Below are positions 47,931 to 56,015 of a stretch of DNA of 64,000 nt, in pieces (the stretch's first letter is position 1; every line of letters begins with the position of its first letter). The notes under the pieces are model-generated. The model was not told where the DNA came from and searched no databases. It was given only the letters and a program-made list of their open reading frames with translations. Position numbers and translations under genes: made by a program. The stretch comes from Clostridia bacterium (GTDB taxonomy: Bacteria > Bacillota > Clostridia > UMGS1840 > HGM11507): contig JAFQLQ010000032.1 of the NCBI GenBank assembly GCA_017414505.1, positions 1-64,000 on the forward strand. The letters run 5' to 3'.

Positions 47931-48722
47931 ATGATAAATGTACTTGCAATCGGGGATGTTGTTGGAAAACTCGGCAGAGAAACAGTATTTTCAAAACTTC
48001 CAGGTCTTATAGAAGAATACAACGCTTTTTTTACTGTTGTTAACGGTGAAAATGCCACTACCGGCAACGGTATAAATGAAAAATATGCTTATAAAATGCT
48101 TGAGTGCGGTGCCGATGTTATTACGCTTGGAAATCACGCTTACAGCAAGCCCGAAATAAACAATATGCTTGAATGTTCTGACAGAATCATCCGTCCTCTT
48201 AATTATCCTGCCGATATGGCAGGCGACGGTGTTACTGTAATAGAGAAGGATAATATAAAGCTTGGTGTTATCAATATTATGGGTAAAACCTATATGGACG
48301 GTAAGCTTTCCTGCCCTTTTAAAACCCTTGATAAAGCGGTGGAGAATTTAAAAAGACGTTACGATGATTTAAAATGCATAATTGTAGATTTTCACGCAGA
48401 AGCTACAAGTGAAAAAAAGGCACTTGGATTTTATATGGATGGAAAAATTTCCGCAATTTACGGAACGCATACCCATGTTCAGACCAACGACAAAAGGGTG
48501 CTTGACGGCGGAACGGGATATGTTACCGATATAGGAATGACCGGTTCCTACGATTCTGTTATAGGCCTTAAAAAGGAAATTGCAATTCCAAGATTTCTTG
48601 GCGAGGCGCAGAACCGTTTCAGATGGGCAGAGGAACGCCCTATGATTAACGCAGCGGTATTCAAAATTGATGAAAATACGGGAAAAACCCTTGAAATAAC
48701 TCTTATCAACAAGGATGTGTGA
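47931..48722 (+). CDS. ymdB: YmdB/TIGR00282 metallophosphoesterase
   Basis: 263 residues with the metal-binding pattern of the family: LAIGDVVGKLGRE, VVNGENATTGNGI, ITLGNHAY, VDFHAEATSEKKALGFY, and YGTHTHVQTNDKRV. YmdB hydrolyses cyclic nucleotides and affects mRNA level and sporulation or biofilm choice in Bacillus. The rny-ymdB order is conserved in Firmicutes. ATG at 47931 with GGAG five bases before it; an earlier in-frame ATG lies within the hairpin and has no site. Confidence 0.93.
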   Translation: MINVLAIGDVVGKLGRETVFSKLPGLIEEYNAFFTVVNGENATTGNGINEKYAYKMLECGADVITLGNHAYSKPEINNMLECSDRIIRPLNYPADMAGDGVTVIEKDNIKLGVINIMGKTYMDGKLSCPFKTLDKAVENLKRRYDDLKCIIVDFHAEATSEKKALGFYMDGKISAIYGTHTHVQTNDKRVLDGGTGYVTDIGMTGSYDSVIGLKKEIAIPRFLGEAQNRFRWAEERPMINAAVFKIDENTGKTLEITLINKDV

Positions 48723-48726
48723 TATT

Positions 48727-49455
48727 ATGAAAACAGTTGAAATTTTAGGTGTGAGAATTAACAACGTAACTATGGCAGAGGCTGTTGAAACTGTTAAAGG
48801 TCTTCTTGAAAAGAATGCTCCTTCTGCTGTTTACACCCCTAATTCTGAAATTATTTACAGAGCTAAAAACGACGAAGAATTTAAAAATGTACTTAATTCA
48901 TCCGACTTAAATGTTGCTGACGGAATCGGTGTTGTTTACGGTGCAAAAATTTTAGGAACACCCATTCCCGAAAGAGTTGCCGGATACGATCTTGCCTGCA
49001 ATCTGCTTCCCGTAATGAATGAAAAAAAGGCAAAGCTGTTTCTTTTTGGCGGAAAAGAGGGAGTAGGGCAGAGAGCAAAGGAAAATATTCTAAAAAAATA
49101 TCCCGATATTAATATTGTTGGAATTAAAAACGGTTATTTTACCGACAGCGCACCCATTATTGAAGCTATAAATGAAACCGAGCCCGATTTTGTTTTTGTT
49201 TGTCTTGGTGCACCCAAGCAGGAAAAATGGATTCACGAAAACAAAGAAAAATTAAAATGCAGGGTAATGATGGGTATTGGCGGAAGCCTTGATGTTTTTG
49301 CAGGTGAGGCAGAACGTGCGCCGGATATTTTCATTAAAATGAATCTGGAATGGTTTTACAGACTTATGAAGAACCCCTCCAGAATAGGCAGAATGATGGA
49401 CCTTCCCAAGTTTGGAATTGCGGTGGCACTTTCGCGCGTTACAAAAAAATCATAA
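48727..49455 (+). CDS. tagA: WecG/TagA/CpsF glycosyltransferase
   Basis: 242-residue GT26 enzyme. Blocks: TPNSEIIYRAKNDEEFKN, LNVADGIGVVYGAK, RVAGYDLACNLL, LFLFGGKEGVG, and FVCLGAPKQEKWIHEN. TagA adds N-acetylmannosamine to the lipid-linked GlcNAc in wall teichoic acid or secondary wall polymer linkage units, which fits with the CsaB/SLH system in the window. The start overlaps the ymdB stop region; ATG at 48727 is chosen, the ATG at 48715 lacks a site. No other tag genes are adjacent. Confidence 0.9.
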   Translation: MKTVEILGVRINNVTMAEAVETVKGLLEKNAPSAVYTPNSEIIYRAKNDEEFKNVLNSSDLNVADGIGVVYGAKILGTPIPERVAGYDLACNLLPVMNEKKAKLFLFGGKEGVGQRAKENILKKYPDINIVGIKNGYFTDSAPIIEAINETEPDFVFVCLGAPKQEKWIHENKEKLKCRVMMGIGGSLDVFAGEAERAPDIFIKMNLEWFYRLMKNPSRIGRMMDLPKFGIAVALSRVTKKS

Positions 49456-49462
49456 AAAAGTA

Positions 49463-49491
49463 TTGACAAATTAATTTTATTGGTCTATAAT
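49463..49491 (+). promoter_or_regulatory. promoter of the aromatic operon
   Basis: Perfect -35 TTGACA, 17-bp spacer, perfect -10 TATAAT. Confidence 0.85.
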
Positions 49492-49523
49492 AGATAAAAA
49501 ATTACAGAAAGGAATCCCGAATA

Positions 49524-49634
49524 ATGGCTGCTATTCTTTTAGGCAAACGATTTAATAGCTTCTTTTTTACCGCTTATTATTTTTTTTATGCGGTTGCTTT
49601 CGCTTGCAAAAAAAGAATATGTACCTGTGAATAA
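49524..49634 (+). CDS. Phe/Tyr-rich leader peptide of the aromatic operon
   Basis: 36 codons, ATG at 49524 with AAAGGAA nine bases before it. The centre reads FNSFFFTAYYFFYAVAF: seven Phe and three Tyr among 36 residues, with an unbroken run of codons for both acids. It ends at TAA 49632-49634, right where the antiterminator strand begins. This matches a ribosome-stalling leader for genes making Phe and Tyr. The peptide itself is unlikely to have another function. Confidence 0.8.
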   Translation: MAAILLGKRFNSFFFTAYYFFYAVAFACKKRICTCE

Positions 49635-49721
49635 TCCGGGATATTTCCCATCCGTAATTTATCAAATATCAATTTATAAAATTTATGCGGTTCACAGATA
49701 CATGTGAGCCGCTGTTTTTTT
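49621..49721 (+). promoter_or_regulatory. transcription attenuator of the aromatic operon
   Basis: Terminator: GCGGTTCAC (49687-49695) with GTGAGCCGC (49704-49712), one G-T pair, then TTTTTTTT. Antiterminator: GTACCTGTGAA (49621-49631) can pair with TTCACAGATAC (49691-49701), 10 of 11, consuming the 5' terminator strand. A ribosome stalled on the Phe/Tyr codons leaves 49621-49631 free and transcription goes on. One that reaches the stop covers this strand and termination occurs. No T-box sequence is present. Confidence 0.75.
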
Positions 49722-49735
49722 AGGAGGTTTTTAGA

Positions 49736-50758
49736 ATGGTAGTAGTAACAAGAAAAGATGTAACAGAAGAGGTCATACAGGAGCTTATAAGAATCCTTAA
49801 TGAGGAATATAATCTTAAAGTTCAGGTAAATGATGGTGAAAATCAGAATGTTTTCGGTTTGATTGGTGATGTAACTGTACTTGATCAGGATATTCTTACT
49901 TCAAGATTTCCTTTTATTGAAAATATAATTAAGGTTTCCGAGCCTTACAAAAAAGCAAACCGCCGTTTCCATCCCGAAGATACAATTGTTAAAGTTGGTA
50001 ATTTTGAAATTGGTGCAAAAAATAAGCTTGCTATTATTGCAGGACCCTGTTCTGTTGAATCCGAAGACCAGATTAAAGAGGTTGCAAAAGGTGTGTCCGG
50101 TCTTGGTGCAACAATGCTAAGAGGCGGTGCTTACAAACCCAGAACTTCTCCCTATGCTTTCCAGGGTATGCAGTTTGAAGGACTTAAACTTCTTAAAAAA
50201 GCAAAGGAAGCAACAGGCCTTCCCATAATTTCAGAAATTATGAGTCAGGATCACATAGATATGTTCGTTGAATACGTTGATGTTCTTCAGGTTGGTGCAA
50301 GAAACATGCAGAACTTTGAGCTTTTAAAGGCTCTTGGAAAAATCAATAAGCCTATCCTTTTAAAGAGAGGTCTTGCAAACACAATGGAAGAGCTTCTTAT
50401 GAGTGCCGAATACATTATGAGCGGCGGAAATCAGCAGGTTATTCTTTGCGAAAGAGGTATAAGAACCTTTGAGCCATACACAAGAAACACTCTTGATATA
50501 AGTGCTATTCCCGTTCTTAAGAGCAAAACTCATTTGCCGGTTGTTGTTGATCCCTCTCATTCCGCAGGTATGAGCTGGCTTGTTCAGCCTCTTGCAAAAG
50601 CTGCTGTTGCAGCAGGTGCGGACGGTATCATGGTTGAAGTTCATAACAATCCTTCAAAAGCTCTTTGCGACGGTAATCAGTCCATTACCATTCCGCAGTT
50701 TGGTCAGTTAATTGAACAGTTAAAACCAATTGCAGCAGTTGAGGGCCGCGAAATATAA
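49736..50758 (+). CDS. aroF: 3-deoxy-7-phosphoheptulonate synthase
   Basis: First committed step of the shikimate pathway (PEP + erythrose 4-phosphate). 340 residues with an N-terminal ferredoxin-like domain (about 1-70, VVVTRKDVTEEVIQELIRI) as in the Bacillus/Thermotoga type, then the TIM barrel with IIAGPCSVESEDQ, RGGAYKPRTSPYAFQG, QVGARNMQNFELLK, VILCERGIRTFEPYTRNTLD and VDPSHSAGM. RBS TAGGAGG. First structural gene behind the Phe/Tyr attenuator, so regulated by aromatic supply. Confidence 0.95.
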   Translation: MVVVTRKDVTEEVIQELIRILNEEYNLKVQVNDGENQNVFGLIGDVTVLDQDILTSRFPFIENIIKVSEPYKKANRRFHPEDTIVKVGNFEIGAKNKLAIIAGPCSVESEDQIKEVAKGVSGLGATMLRGGAYKPRTSPYAFQGMQFEGLKLLKKAKEATGLPIISEIMSQDHIDMFVEYVDVLQVGARNMQNFELLKALGKINKPILLKRGLANTMEELLMSAEYIMSGGNQQVILCERGIRTFEPYTRNTLDISAIPVLKSKTHLPVVVDPSHSAGMSWLVQPLAKAAVAAGADGIMVEVHNNPSKALCDGNQSITIPQFGQLIEQLKPIAAVEGREI

Positions 50759-50772
50759 GGAGAAAATTTTTA

Positions 50773-51627
50773 ATGTTTAGTACGGTAGGTATTGTAGGTT
50801 TTGGATTAATAGGCGGCTCTATGGGAGCCGCCCTTAAGAAAAACAGCGATATAAAAATTATTGCAATAGACAAAGATGAAAGCGTTGTGGATTATGCAGT
50901 AAAAAACGGCATGGCAGATGAGGGAAGTGTCAACCCTTCTGAGGCTCTGCCCAAATGCGATGTAGTTTTTATTGCTCTTTATCCCGAGCTTACAAAAACT
51001 TTTATTAAAGAAAACAAAGATGTTTTTAAAAAAGGTTCTGTTGTTTCCGACCTTTGCGGAATAAAAAGCGAAATTGTTTCCTTTGTAAACAGTCTTGGAG
51101 ATGTGAATTTCCGTTTTGTTGGGGCACATCCTATGGCCGGTAAAGAAATTAACGGTGTAACTGCGGCAGATGATGTTTTGTATCAGGGAGCTTCGCTTCT
51201 TATAACTCCTGATGAAAAAACAGACCGCAACGCCGTGGAAATTATAAGAAGACTTGGTGAGATTGCCGGATTCGGCAGAATTGTGGAAGCTTCACCAAAA
51301 AGACACGATGAAATTATAACCTACACCTCACAGCTTCCCCACGTAATGTCGGTTGCATATGTTCTTCAGAACACTTTTGACAAATGTGACGGATTCTACG
51401 CAGGAAGCTTTGAAGATATGGCACGTGTGGCAAAAATAAATGAAAATCTGTGGTCGGAGCTTTTTGCTCTTAACAGGGATACTTTAAACAAACAGATAGA
51501 CGAGTACGTTTCTGCACTTTTAACCCTTAAAGAACAAATCGGCAGGGGAGATTACGAAATTCTTAAAGAAACACTTAAAAAATCCAGAGAACTTAAGGAG
51601 TGGAAAGATGAAAACTATAAACGTTAA
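50773..51627 (+). CDS. tyrA: prephenate dehydrogenase
   Basis: Oxidative decarboxylation of prephenate to 4-hydroxyphenylpyruvate, the tyrosine branch. 284 residues: NAD-binding start VGIVGFGLIGGSMGAALKK, then FVGAHPMAGKEINGV, ASPKRHDEIITYTSQLPHVMS. The C-terminal helical domain is of usual size and no ACT domain is present. It overlaps aroB by 20 bp. Confidence 0.93.
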   Translation: MFSTVGIVGFGLIGGSMGAALKKNSDIKIIAIDKDESVVDYAVKNGMADEGSVNPSEALPKCDVVFIALYPELTKTFIKENKDVFKKGSVVSDLCGIKSEIVSFVNSLGDVNFRFVGAHPMAGKEINGVTAADDVLYQGASLLITPDEKTDRNAVEIIRRLGEIAGFGRIVEASPKRHDEIITYTSQLPHVMSVAYVLQNTFDKCDGFYAGSFEDMARVAKINENLWSELFALNRDTLNKQIDEYVSALLTLKEQIGRGDYEILKETLKKSRELKEWKDENYKR

Positions 51628-52615
51628 CACTTCTTCCAAAAATTATAATATATATATAGGAAAGAATTTACTCGAAAAAGCCGGCGAATTTATTGAAGGC
51701 TACGGCAAAATTGCCGTTGTATGTGATACAAATGTGGAAAAGCTGTACCTTGATACAGTTTTAAAGGCGTTGCCCAATGCGAAACCCATTGTAATTCCTG
51801 CAGGCGAAGAATATAAAACTCTGGATACGGTTACAAAAATTTATTCATCACTTGCAGAAATGAAATTTACAAGAAAAGATTTGCTTGTTGCTTTGGGCGG
51901 CGGTGTAACCGGCGATATTACGGGATTCTGTGCTGCAACCTATTTAAGGGGCTGTGCGTATATTCAGATGCCTACCACCTTGCTTTCTCAGGTGGATTCT
52001 TCAATAGGCGGAAAAACCGGCGTTGATTTGCCTTTCGGAAAAAATCTTGTGGGTGCTTTCAAGCAGCCGGAAATGGTTATTGCCGATACAGAAACCCTGA
52101 AAACTCTTCCGCCGGAGCAGGTTGCAAGCGGTATGGCGGAAATTATAAAATCTGCTCTTATAGCAGATGAAAAGCTTGTGGAAAAGCTTGAAAATTCCGA
52201 CGATTTTGAAGCGGATAAAGAAGATTTCATAATTGGTGCAATTAATGTAAAAAAGCACGTTGTGGAAATAGATGAATTTGAAAAATATGAAAGAATGTGG
52301 CTTAACTACGGTCATACTTTCGGACATTCCATTGAAAAATATATGGGATTTACGGGAATTACCCATGGTCAGGCAGTTGCTGTAGGAATGTATATGATAA
52401 CAACCGAGCCTGAGCTTAAAAATAAGGTTAAGGCGCTTCTTGTAAAATATAATCTTGGTTATGAAACGGATATTCCGGCAGCTGAAATTGTAAAAGGTTC
52501 ACTTAACGATAAAAAAGCCGTTGCTGACGGTGTAAATGTGGTTCTTCTTGAAAAAGCCGGAAAAGCATACATTAAAAAATATACCTGTGAGGAGCTGAAT
52601 GAAATTTATGGATAA
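51608..52615 (+). CDS. aroB: 3-dehydroquinate synthase
   Basis: 335 residues. Family blocks: VIPAGEEYKTLDTV, LVALGGGVTGDITGFCAATY, RGCAYIQMPTTLLSQVDSSI followed by GGKTGVDLP, NLVGAFKQP, and metal-site YGHTFGHSIE. Closes DAHP to 3-dehydroquinate using NAD and Zn2+. Its reading frame starts within tyrA and ends within aroA, so the three are tightly coupled. Confidence 0.95.
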   Translation: MKTINVNTSSKNYNIYIGKNLLEKAGEFIEGYGKIAVVCDTNVEKLYLDTVLKALPNAKPIVIPAGEEYKTLDTVTKIYSSLAEMKFTRKDLLVALGGGVTGDITGFCAATYLRGCAYIQMPTTLLSQVDSSIGGKTGVDLPFGKNLVGAFKQPEMVIADTETLKTLPPEQVASGMAEIIKSALIADEKLVEKLENSDDFEADKEDFIIGAINVKKHVVEIDEFEKYERMWLNYGHTFGHSIEKYMGFTGITHGQAVAVGMYMITTEPELKNKVKALLVKYNLGYETDIPAAEIVKGSLNDKKAVADGVNVVLLEKAGKAYIKKYTCEELNEIYG

Positions 52616-53849
52616 AAGGGTAATTTCACCCGGCACCTTAACGGGCAGAACAACTGTACCCTCCTCGAAAAGTGTTGCTCACAGAGCAATAATCTTAGGA
52701 GGGCTTTTGTGCGATAATATACTTATTAAGGATATAGATTTTTCCGAGGATATTTATGCAACTCTGGATGCACTTAAAACTCTTGGTGTTATGTGCGAAA
52801 CAGAGGAACATTCGGTTAAGCTTTCAAAAGAAAAGCTTATAACAAACGGAGAAATTGAAATAAACGCAAGAGAATCGGGTTCAACGTTGAGATTTCTTAT
52901 TCCCGTTGCGGCGGCACTTAACAATAAAACCGTATTCAGCGGTGGCGGCAGACTTCCCGAAAGACCTCTTGATGCATATTTTGAACTGTTTGATAAGCAG
53001 GGAATAAAATATTCCTGTCCGGATGGAAAATATCTTCCGCTTACCATTGAGGGCGGATTCACTTCGGATGTTTTTGAAATAAGAGGCGATACAAGCTCGC
53101 AGTTTATAACAGGTCTGATGCTTGCCTCGGCAACAAGCGGTGAACACGAAATAAAAATAACAACCGACCTTCAGTCTAAGCCCTACGCAGAAATTACAGC
53201 GGATTTAATGAGAAAATTCGGTTGTGATGTTTCGGGCGAATACAAAGTTACGGCATCCAAAGGATGTAATTTGACCGAATATTCCGTTGAAAAGGACTGG
53301 TCGCAGGCGGCTTTTTTCCTTGCAGGAGGAATTATAAACGGCAATGTAACCCTTACGGATATGAATATGGATTCCAAACAGGGCGACAAGGAAATTGTTG
53401 ACATAATTAAGCGTTTCGGCGGCGATATAACAGTAAACGGAACAGAAATAACAGCAAAAAAATCCAAAATCAAAGGTATAGATATAGATGCGTCAGATAT
53501 TCCGGATCTTGTTCCCATAATGTCGGCTCTGGCTTGCTTTGCTGAGGGAACAACGAGGATTTACAATGCTGAAAGACTGAGAATCAAGGAAAGCGACAGA
53601 CTTTCCGCTATGTATGAAGAGCTGACGAAAATCGGTGCAGATATAAAAATGACAAATGACGGACTTATAATAAATGGTGGTAAAAAGCTTCGCGGCGCAT
53701 CTGTTTACGGGCACAATGACCACCGTATTGTAATGTCTATGGCAATTGCGGCAATTGGTACAGAGGGCGATGTGGAAATTTCTGACTGCAATGCAGTAAA
53801 GAAATCCTGGCCCGGTTTTTTCAGCGATTACCAGGAGTTAAGGGGGTAA
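52599..53849 (+). CDS. aroA: 3-phosphoshikimate 1-carboxyvinyltransferase (EPSP synthase)
   Basis: 416 residues. Blocks: VPSSKSVAHRAIILGGLL, NARESGSTLRFLIPVAAA, GGGRLPERPLDAYFELF, GDTSSQFITGLMLAS, RLRIKESDRLSAMYEEL and HNDHRIVMSMAIAAIG. The phosphate-binding S-S-K-S and the R-I-K-E-S-D-R pattern are complete. Two starts are possible: ATG 52599 with GAGGAG four bases before it, or ATG 52608; the first three codons (MKF) are not typical. Part of the aroF-pheA operon. Confidence 0.94.
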   Translation: MKFMDKRVISPGTLTGRTTVPSSKSVAHRAIILGGLLCDNILIKDIDFSEDIYATLDALKTLGVMCETEEHSVKLSKEKLITNGEIEINARESGSTLRFLIPVAAALNNKTVFSGGGRLPERPLDAYFELFDKQGIKYSCPDGKYLPLTIEGGFTSDVFEIRGDTSSQFITGLMLASATSGEHEIKITTDLQSKPYAEITADLMRKFGCDVSGEYKVTASKGCNLTEYSVEKDWSQAAFFLAGGIINGNVTLTDMNMDSKQGDKEIVDIIKRFGGDITVNGTEITAKKSKIKGIDIDASDIPDLVPIMSALACFAEGTTRIYNAERLRIKESDRLSAMYEELTKIGADIKMTNDGLIINGGKKLRGASVYGHNDHRIVMSMAIAAIGTEGDVEISDCNAVKKSWPGFFSDYQELRG

Positions 53850-53853
53850 AATA

Positions 53854-54891
53854 ATGAATATAGAAATATTTGGTGAATCACACGGCCCCTGCATTGGCGG
53901 AGTTATAACAAATTTGCCTGCAGGAATTAAACTGGATTACGAAAAAATACAGATGGATATGGATAAAAGACGTCCGGGCAGAGATAATATTTCAACCTCA
54001 CGAAATGAGGCAGATAAATTTGAAATTATTTCCGGAGTTCTTAATGAAACTACCACCGGTGCACCCCTTACGGTTATTATAAAAAATTCCGATACTCATT
54101 CATCGGATTATTCCAACGTTAAATTTGTTCCTCGCCCTAATCATTCGGATTATGCGGCTTATATTAAATACGGCGGAAACAACGATATACGTGGCGGTGG
54201 ACATTTTTCAGGCCGTCTTACTGCGCCTCTTGTTTGCATAGGCGCTGTTTGCAAGCAGATACTTGAGAAAAAAAATATAACAGTAAAAGCGCATATATAT
54301 AATGTAGGAAATGTTTACGATACACCTATGGGAATGGAAATTCCGGAAGTTAAGGAAGATTTTCCTGTTATAAATCCCGAAAAAGAAGCGGAAATAAAGG
54401 AAGTTATTTTAGATGCTAAAAACAATCTTGATTCTGTTGGCGGTTCGGTAGAATGCGGAGTTTTCGGACTTGAAGCCGGATACGGCGGTCCATTCTTAGA
54501 CGGACTTGAGGGTGAAATAGCAAGAATGCTTTTTGGCATTTCGGGCGTAAAAGGTGTTGATTTTGGTTTGGGATTTGATTTTGCAAAATCCAGAGGAAGC
54601 GAAGTTAACGACGGTTTTACCGTTAAGAACGGCAAAGTGGAAACGCTTACAAATAACTGCGGCGGAATACTGGGCGGAATTTCAAGCGGAATGCCAATAG
54701 TTGCAAAGGCAGCATTTAAACCAACACCGTCAATTGCCATAAAACAGAACTCCGTTGATCTTACAACAATGACCGATGCAGAGCTTGAAATTCACGGCAG
54801 ACACGATCCCTGCATTGCAGTTCGTGCTGTGCCCGTAGTAGAAGCTGTTATGGCAATTGCAGTTACAAAAATTATTTATAGCGGGAGATAA
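53854..54891 (+). CDS. aroC: chorismate synthase
   Basis: 345 residues. GESHGPCIGGVI, RRPGRDNISTSRNEADKFEI, PNHSDYAAYIKYGGNNDIRG, GRLTAPLV and GRHDPCIAVRAVPVVEAVMA give a clear match. Makes chorismate from EPSP with reduced FMN. Begins 4 bp after aroA. The operon lacks aroD, aroE and aroK, which must lie elsewhere. Confidence 0.95.
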   Translation: MNIEIFGESHGPCIGGVITNLPAGIKLDYEKIQMDMDKRRPGRDNISTSRNEADKFEIISGVLNETTTGAPLTVIIKNSDTHSSDYSNVKFVPRPNHSDYAAYIKYGGNNDIRGGGHFSGRLTAPLVCIGAVCKQILEKKNITVKAHIYNVGNVYDTPMGMEIPEVKEDFPVINPEKEAEIKEVILDAKNNLDSVGGSVECGVFGLEAGYGGPFLDGLEGEIARMLFGISGVKGVDFGLGFDFAKSRGSEVNDGFTVKNGKVETLTNNCGGILGGISSGMPIVAKAAFKPTPSIAIKQNSVDLTTMTDAELEIHGRHDPCIAVRAVPVVEAVMAIAVTKIIYSGR

Positions 54892-54893
54892 TT

Positions 54894-56015
54894 ATGAGAG
54901 CTTTATCTGAAATTCGTGTTGATATAGATGCAACAGACAGTGCTTTAAAAGAGTTGTTTTTAAAACGAATGGAGCTTGTTGATCAGGTTGCAGAATATAA
55001 AAGAGAAAATATGTCACCTGTGCGTCATAAGGAAAGAGAAGCGCAGATAATAAAAAAACGCACCGAGGGCGAAGAAAAATTTGTTCCTCAGATTGCAGAG
55101 TTTTTTGAGCAGATGATTGAAATAAGCTGCGATTATCAGGAAGGTGTTCTCGGCATAAAAGGCGAAGCGTTCAAATATACTCCTATGACAGAAAAAGAAT
55201 TTCAAAACGGAGTAAAAAAAGTTTGTCATCAGGGGATTAAGGGCTCATATTCTTATGAACAGTCAGTTAAATATTTTAAGGATGCTGAAATTATGAGTGT
55301 TCACGCCTTTGAAGATGTTTTCAAGGCCGTTTCCGAGGGGGAAGCCGATTGCGGTGTTGTTCCCATTGAAAATATTACAGAAGGCAGTGTTACTCAGGTT
55401 TTTGATTTGCTTAATAAATATGAGGTTTATATTGCTCACAGCGAGTGCTTGGAGATTGTTCACTGCCTGCTTGGAAGCGGAACTTTAGAGGACATCGGAG
55501 CTGTTTCAAGCCATCCGCAGGGACTTAGTCAGTGCAGTGATTTCATTTATAAAAACAAATATAAAACGGTTCAGAGCCTCAATACCGCAGTTGCCGCAAG
55601 AGATGTTGCAAAAATGGGTATGAAGGGTGTTGGCGCAATCTGTTCTGAAATAAACGCAGAGCTTTACGGTCTTAACGTGCTTGCAAGAAATATTGCCAAC
55701 AGAAACGACAACAAAACAAGATTTATTTTTATAACAAAAAATCCGGTTATTCTGGAAAATGCAAATAACATAAGTTTATCCTTCAAGCTTAAAAACACCT
55801 CGGGAACACTCAGCAAGGTGCTTAACAATTTTTCAAAGCACGGCTACAATTTAACCAAAATTGAATCCCGCCCGATTATGGGAAAAGAATGGGAATATTT
55901 ATTTTATATTGACATTGACGCAAATTTAGGAGATAATAGAACCGCTGAGTATTTTTCATCAATAGGTTATCTCTTTGATGAATACCGTATTTTAGGCAAT
56001 TATAAAAAGGATTGA
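54894..56015 (+). CDS. pheA: bifunctional chorismate mutase/prephenate dehydratase (P-protein)
   Basis: 373 residues. Chorismate mutase AroQ fold at 1-85 (LSEIRVDIDATDSALKELFLK...PVRHKEREAQIIKK); prephenate dehydratase at about 108-285 (HQGIKGSYSYEQSVKYF, GVVPIENITEGSVTQVFDLL, NKTRFIFITKNP); ACT domain at about 290-370 with LKNTSGTLSKVL and the ESRP Phe-binding motif. So the enzyme itself should be inhibited by Phe, in addition to attenuation of the operon. Confidence 0.95.
   Translation: MRALSEIRVDIDATDSALKELFLKRMELVDQVAEYKRENMSPVRHKEREAQIIKKRTEGEEKFVPQIAEFFEQMIEISCDYQEGVLGIKGEAFKYTPMTEKEFQNGVKKVCHQGIKGSYSYEQSVKYFKDAEIMSVHAFEDVFKAVSEGEADCGVVPIENITEGSVTQVFDLLNKYEVYIAHSECLEIVHCLLGSGTLEDIGAVSSHPQGLSQCSDFIYKNKYKTVQSLNTAVAARDVAKMGMKGVGAICSEINAELYGLNVLARNIANRNDNKTRFIFITKNPVILENANNISLSFKLKNTSGTLSKVLNNFSKHGYNLTKIESRPIMGKEWEYLFYIDIDANLGDNRTAEYFSSIGYLFDEYRILGNYKKD

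Follow-up and report, generated by a model that had tools for sequence, protein, structure and literature searches.

A predicted ribosome-mediated attenuator with phenylalanine and tyrosine codons upstream of the aroF operon in a Clostridia bacterium

Results

Organization of the aroF operon and its leader region

The window analyzed here is a whole stretch of 64,000 nucleotides from the 2.38 Mb draft genome of a Clostridia bacterium. Its family comprises four genomes in our sample, and the best named relative is Acetivibrio sp. MSJd-27. Six genes follow one another on the forward strand: aroF, encoding DAHP synthase (49736-50758; NCBIfam TIGR01361 / PRK08673); tyrA, prephenate dehydrogenase (50773-51627; Pfam PF02153, PF20463); aroB, 3-dehydroquinate synthase (51608-52615; TIGR01357, above cut-off); aroA, EPSP synthase (52599-53849; TIGR01356, above cut-off); aroC, chorismate synthase (53854-54891; TIGR00033, above cut-off); and pheA, a fused chorismate mutase/prephenate dehydratase with an ACT domain (54894-56015; PF01817, PF00800, PF01842). 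The gene order given in an earlier reading of this DNA (the original prediction) is borne out by these NCBIfam and Pfam matches.

A gene for a WecB/TagA/CpsF glycosyltransferase (48715-49455) stops just before the aroF promoter. This promoter, which had been described as strong, is of the sigma-A type (TTGACA-17-TATAAT, 49463-49491, forward strand) and matches the consensus at 12 of 12 positions. It is followed by a leader open reading frame (ORF) of 36 codons (49524-49634, forward strand), which is preceded by the Shine-Dalgarno sequence AGAAAGGA and translates as MAAILLGKRFNSFFFTAYYFFYAVAFACKKRICTCE, ending at the stop codon UAA (49632-49634). The translation agrees with the seven Phe and three Tyr codons that had been claimed for it. 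The control codons would extend from Phe10 to Phe26 (49551-49601) and include FFF, YY, and FFY runs. When the leader region was shuffled 3000 times with dinucleotides preserved, no shuffle contained an ORF with ATG, Shine-Dalgarno sequence, and 8 Phe/Tyr in 12 codons. The T-richness of the region makes chance TTT codons likelier, but these shuffles preserve it. The promoter, leader ORF, antiterminator strand, terminator, and aroF stand in the right order and at the right spacing.

The leader has Phe and Tyr codons and zero Trp codons, and trpE (anthranilate synthase component I, PF04715) was not detected in the genomes of the family, of which the one carrying the window is 88% complete and the others are 93-98% complete. 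The codons presumed to be sensed therefore match the products of the operon, in line with the proposal that Phe and Tyr codons suit an operon making both amino acids.

Alternative structures of the leader RNA

An intrinsic terminator (GCGGTTCACAGATACATGTGAGCCGC followed by TGTTTTTTT; 49687-49721, forward strand, -16.8 kcal/mol) lies immediately 5' of the aroF ribosome binding site. It consists of a hairpin formed by segments 3 and 4 (49687-49712) and a U-run. Segment 3 (49687-49702) is common to the terminator and a predicted antiterminator, the 5' strand of which, segment 2 (49619-49639), spans the leader stop codon; the 2:3 duplex has an energy of -14.9 kcal/mol. Both the terminator before the operon and the antiterminator strand at the leader stop had been anticipated. 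Segment 2 can also pair with a protector strand, segment 1 (49515-49551), in a duplex of -22.0 kcal/mol. In addition, the 5' end of the leader with its Shine-Dalgarno sequence (49498-49520) is complementary to the post-stop spacer (49636-49661). This duplex of -19.2 kcal/mol may restrict repeated translation of the leader.

The 244-base leader (49492-49735) folds better than 200 of 200 shuffles (z = -3.09). We folded it in alternative states by removing the ribosome footprint, for which we assumed a reach of about 12 bases beyond the first A-site base. With no ribosome, the 1:2 helix and the terminator form in the free RNA, and the terminator has a probability of 1.0. With a ribosome at UAA, segment 2 is covered and the terminator is the sole hairpin. 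In the nascent RNA with a ribosome stalled at Tyr22 or Phe26, the antiterminator has a probability of 1.0. When segment 4 is present, the Tyr22 stall brings the antiterminator (0.49) and the terminator (0.51) near parity, and the Phe26 stall favors the terminator (0.92). The switch must therefore be kinetic, because the terminator equals or beats the antiterminator once segment 4 exists. A kinetic choice between hairpins is also made in classical attenuators. The predicted fold thus switches with ribosome position as in textbook attenuators, as expected from the original prediction.

Conservation of the leader and its helices

The leader and terminator are kept in two of the three family relatives (L031, from Acetivibrio sp. 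MSJd-27, and L004), the leaders of which are MAKLHSFSNRFYSFFTAYYYFMFAAIFGCLKKECICEPIG and MNKLFANNFYFSYFAAYFFGFVAFFGCMQRKYICEIV; both have terminators, and Rfam detected no T-box in either. The third relative, G002 (locus L003), has a genome of 1.3 Mb with aroF present and no leader. Phe/Tyr leaders with alternative pairings, the lack of which in relatives had been named as counter-evidence, are thus present in L031, L004, and many other Clostridia loci, but not in G002. At L003, a tyrA-looking gene starts divergently, on the opposite strand, at the aroF start codon. When the family was searched with the leader DNA, only G001 matched well (E 2.8e-12); therefore, the leader DNA diverges fast.

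In a three-way alignment, two-sided changes occur at three pairs of the terminator and at two pairs of the 2:3 antiterminator, and the paired cells amount to 100% and 96%, respectively. Slid controls gave 22-50% of cells paired. Of 500 letter shuffles, 94 reached the values of the antiterminator, the alignment holding three sequences and few counts. Taken by itself, this alignment supports the antiterminator only weakly; the weight is carried by the swap tests described below.

In the swap test, the pairing of each leader with its own partner strand is compared with its pairing with the partners of other genomes. In set 1 (41 leaders), the 2:3 helix had an energy of -13.7 kcal/mol with its own partner versus -9.6 kcal/mol with swapped partners (p = 1e-9); the 1:2 helix gave p = 3e-6, and the pairing of the Shine-Dalgarno region with the post-stop spacer gave p = 0.002, with two controls at p = 0.56 and 0.65. 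Set 2 (51 leaders) was drawn separately and its segments do not overlap; a few leaders, such as L099/L162, are in both sets. It gave p = 4e-10 for 2:3, p = 1e-6 for 1:2, and p = 0.003 for the Shine-Dalgarno to spacer pairing, with three controls at p = 0.59-0.97; all of these p values are somewhat optimistic, as related leaders within the sets are not fully independent. The signal of the Shine-Dalgarno to spacer pairing is weaker than those of 2:3 and 1:2 in both sets.

Distribution among Clostridia

A Phe/Tyr leader plus terminator was found at 49 of 107 AroF loci, about half of a set that is biased by having been picked by similarity. An ORF with ATG, Shine-Dalgarno sequence, and six or more Phe/Tyr within 12 codons is present in 39 of the 107 upstream regions, versus a shuffle mean of 0.46; other amino-acid pairs, by the same test, reached none above 18 of 107. 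A class-wide draw restricted to better AroF matches gave 99 usable upstream regions: 64 with leader plus terminator, 8 with a T-box motif (scored with up to 2 mismatches), 26 with neither, and 1 inside an operon. The values of 64/99 and 8/99 are not prevalences, since T-boxes occur among weaker AroF matches, of which too few were sampled, and some of the 64 leaders that pass only the loosest threshold (5 Phe/Tyr in 12 codons) may be ORFs arising by chance. Judging from these sequences, Phe/Tyr leader attenuators look common among the aroF genes of Clostridia.

In an AroF tree of 95 rows, a well supported branch separates 50 leader-bearing rows from three T-box rows; the tree is unrooted, and with only these three T-box rows it does not give the direction of change. 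The T-box clade also contains many aroF genes inside operons. An Acholeplasmataceae locus (L103) has a Phe/Tyr leader and is placed among the leader-bearing AroF. In many loci, the leader stop lies within the antiterminator strand or directly next to it; in one Oscillospiraceae group, the strand begins just after the stop.

We also observed a motif, TTT RGC NNN GGY TAT TTT, that is conserved across families inside the Phe/Tyr codon run. It is absent from the leader in the window and is carried by L006, L010, L062, L067, L091, L103, L130, L141, L153, L185, and about 20 others. For Ser, the motif uses AGC without exception and never a TCN codon, and both leaders with AAC instead have GGT. This restriction places the constraint at the RNA level, where it fits a 4-bp hairpin, UAGC-NNNG-GYUA. 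A second layout is seen at L016, L054, L068, L106, L108, and L110, which have short leaders of about 17-22 codons and an antiterminator strand just past the stop codon (+1 to +21).

Discussion

A ribosome-mediated attenuator is characterized by a Shine-Dalgarno-preceded ORF rich in codons for the product amino acids, a terminator between this leader and the first gene, an exclusive antiterminator with a 5' strand that is covered by a ribosome at the stop codon, and a protector helix that forms when the leader is untranslated. The first two are present upstream of aroF, the third is found as sequence and predicted pairing, and the 1:2 helix as predicted pairing. The reading first proposed for this locus agrees with the state folding, the swap tests, and the compensatory changes, and we consider it very probable, on the basis of sequence and modeled folding, that the aroF leader is a ribosome-mediated transcription attenuator sensing the charging of tRNA-Phe and tRNA-Tyr. 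Leader translation, ribosome stalling, and starvation-dependent readthrough are what we infer from anatomy, conservation, and pairing.

Transcription would start near 49498, and ribosomes would translate the leader ORF while it emerges from RNA polymerase. With ample Phe-tRNA and Tyr-tRNA, the ribosome would reach UAA at 49632 and cover segment 2 (49619-49639), so that the terminator (49687-49712) could form and transcription would end before aroF. If either charged tRNA were scarce, the ribosome would stall within codons 10-26, opening the 1:2 helix and leaving segment 2 free; segment 2 would then pair with segment 3 ahead of the synthesis of segment 4, and transcription would continue into the operon. 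If the leader were untranslated, 1:2 would form and termination would be the default.

Alternative pairings by themselves are no proof of translation, and the leader RNA could instead be a metabolite- or protein-sensing attenuator in which the Phe/Tyr codons stem from T-rich RNA structure. The RNA-level motif inside the codon run of about 30 distant leaders would suit such a device. However, the leaders almost always have ATG and a Shine-Dalgarno sequence and show an enrichment for Phe/Tyr that other residue pairs lack. Both Phe codons (TTT/TTC) and both Tyr codons (TAT/TAC) occur, Phe and Tyr interchange, and most loci place the antiterminator strand at the stop codon or close to it. We therefore regard this explanation as improbable.

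Control of the operon by a T-box or another described riboswitch, with the ORF being incidental, deserves consideration because T-boxes are frequent in Clostridia, being present in 59 of 60 genomes, and lie directly 5' of aroF in some of them (by coordinates in G029, G033, G043, and G044; also L015, L052, and L066). However, in the Rfam scan of the whole window no family reached the threshold, T-box (RF00230) and leader families included. A T-box in this region, which the original prediction had named as counter-evidence, is thus absent by Rfam, and described riboswitch and T-box families are refuted as candidates at the window's aroF. Rfam gave zero matches on 14 other leader-bearing loci; its run on L031, L004, and 58 loci without a detected leader plus terminator yielded the T-boxes of L015, L052, and L066. 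The eight T-boxes of the window's genome all sit elsewhere, near trpB, thrS, aspS, leuA, and transporters, which indicates that one genome uses both devices. This explanation is accordingly very unlikely. As for TRAP, reading 49498-49735 revealed no series of (G/U)AG repeats close to the transcript 5' end. Lastly, the hydrophobic 36-residue peptide, although served by a promoter and a ribosome binding site of its own, is hardly credible as a functional small protein (a membrane peptide or toxin), because it has no Pfam match, its non-Phe/Tyr residues diverge between relatives, leader lengths range from about 17 to more than 60, and the end of its gene doubles as an RNA pairing strand.

The attenuator proposed here resembles known systems. 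The enterobacterial pheA and pheST leaders are four-segment ribosome-mediated attenuators that carry Phe codons and a terminator upstream of genes related to Phe. The leader of aroF shares the four segments, Phe codons, and terminator, but it combines Phe with Tyr codons, whereas the enterobacterial leaders have Phe only, and it precedes a six-gene operon; the RNA sequences are unlike, and no Rfam leader family matches the window. A T-box likewise takes tRNA charging as input, gives antitermination as output, and occurs before aroF in some Clostridia; however, it binds the tRNA directly. The uORFC-13-1 motif was predicted in Acholeplasma as a uORF that lies upstream of aroF and contains Phe codon(s); it is known from 24 sequences of Acholeplasma and environmental DNA only, and Phe alone is mentioned for it (PMC8632094). 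Both it and the present leader have an aroF uORF with Phe codons, a promoter, a ribosome binding site, and a terminator; by its description, it differs from the leaders reported here, which have Phe and Tyr codons and occur in many Clostridia families. In Firmicutes, a leucine-rich attenuator peptide of the S. aureus ilv-leu operon is experimentally supported (PMC5794164), and His leaders stand in place of T-boxes at Bacillus hisS*/hisZ (PMC2965389). These are also cases of Firmicute leader-peptide attenuation where relatives use a T-box, but they concern other amino acids and other operons.

The original prediction had contrasted Firmicutes, said usually to use T-box or TRAP, with enteric bacteria as the home of peptide attenuators. 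The lack of a T-box here agrees with it, but the contrast was overstated, since Firmicute leader attenuators are known (PMC2965389, PMC5794164, PMC8632094) and aroF leaders look common in Clostridia. The mechanism is already known in Firmicutes; the notable part is its breadth in Clostridia, and we found no direct report of Phe/Tyr leader peptides in Clostridia in the open-access literature. Regulation in Clostridia is usually annotated by T-box or riboswitch search, and leader peptides so short tend to go uncalled. If our reading is true, much of the class Clostridia controls a central biosynthetic operon in a way that has been overlooked, and leader-peptide attenuation is no enterobacterial speciality. 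One gene, aroF, under T-box or leader peptide control within one class, also offers a natural set.

A wider proposal seems to us plausible but not quite probable: that Phe/Tyr leader attenuation is a main, old control of aroF across Clostridia (reaching Acholeplasma), with T-boxes restricted to another AroF clade, and that the mini-hairpin (UAGC-NNNG-GYUA) of one large branch has its own role, for example in timing polymerase and ribosome.

The genome of the window also carries trpB with a T-box. The presence of trpB with no detected trpE in this genome suggests indole salvage. Between the divergent genes leuA-like and trpB, two T-boxes follow directly on each other (L115/L119, G000:C43:3988-4561).
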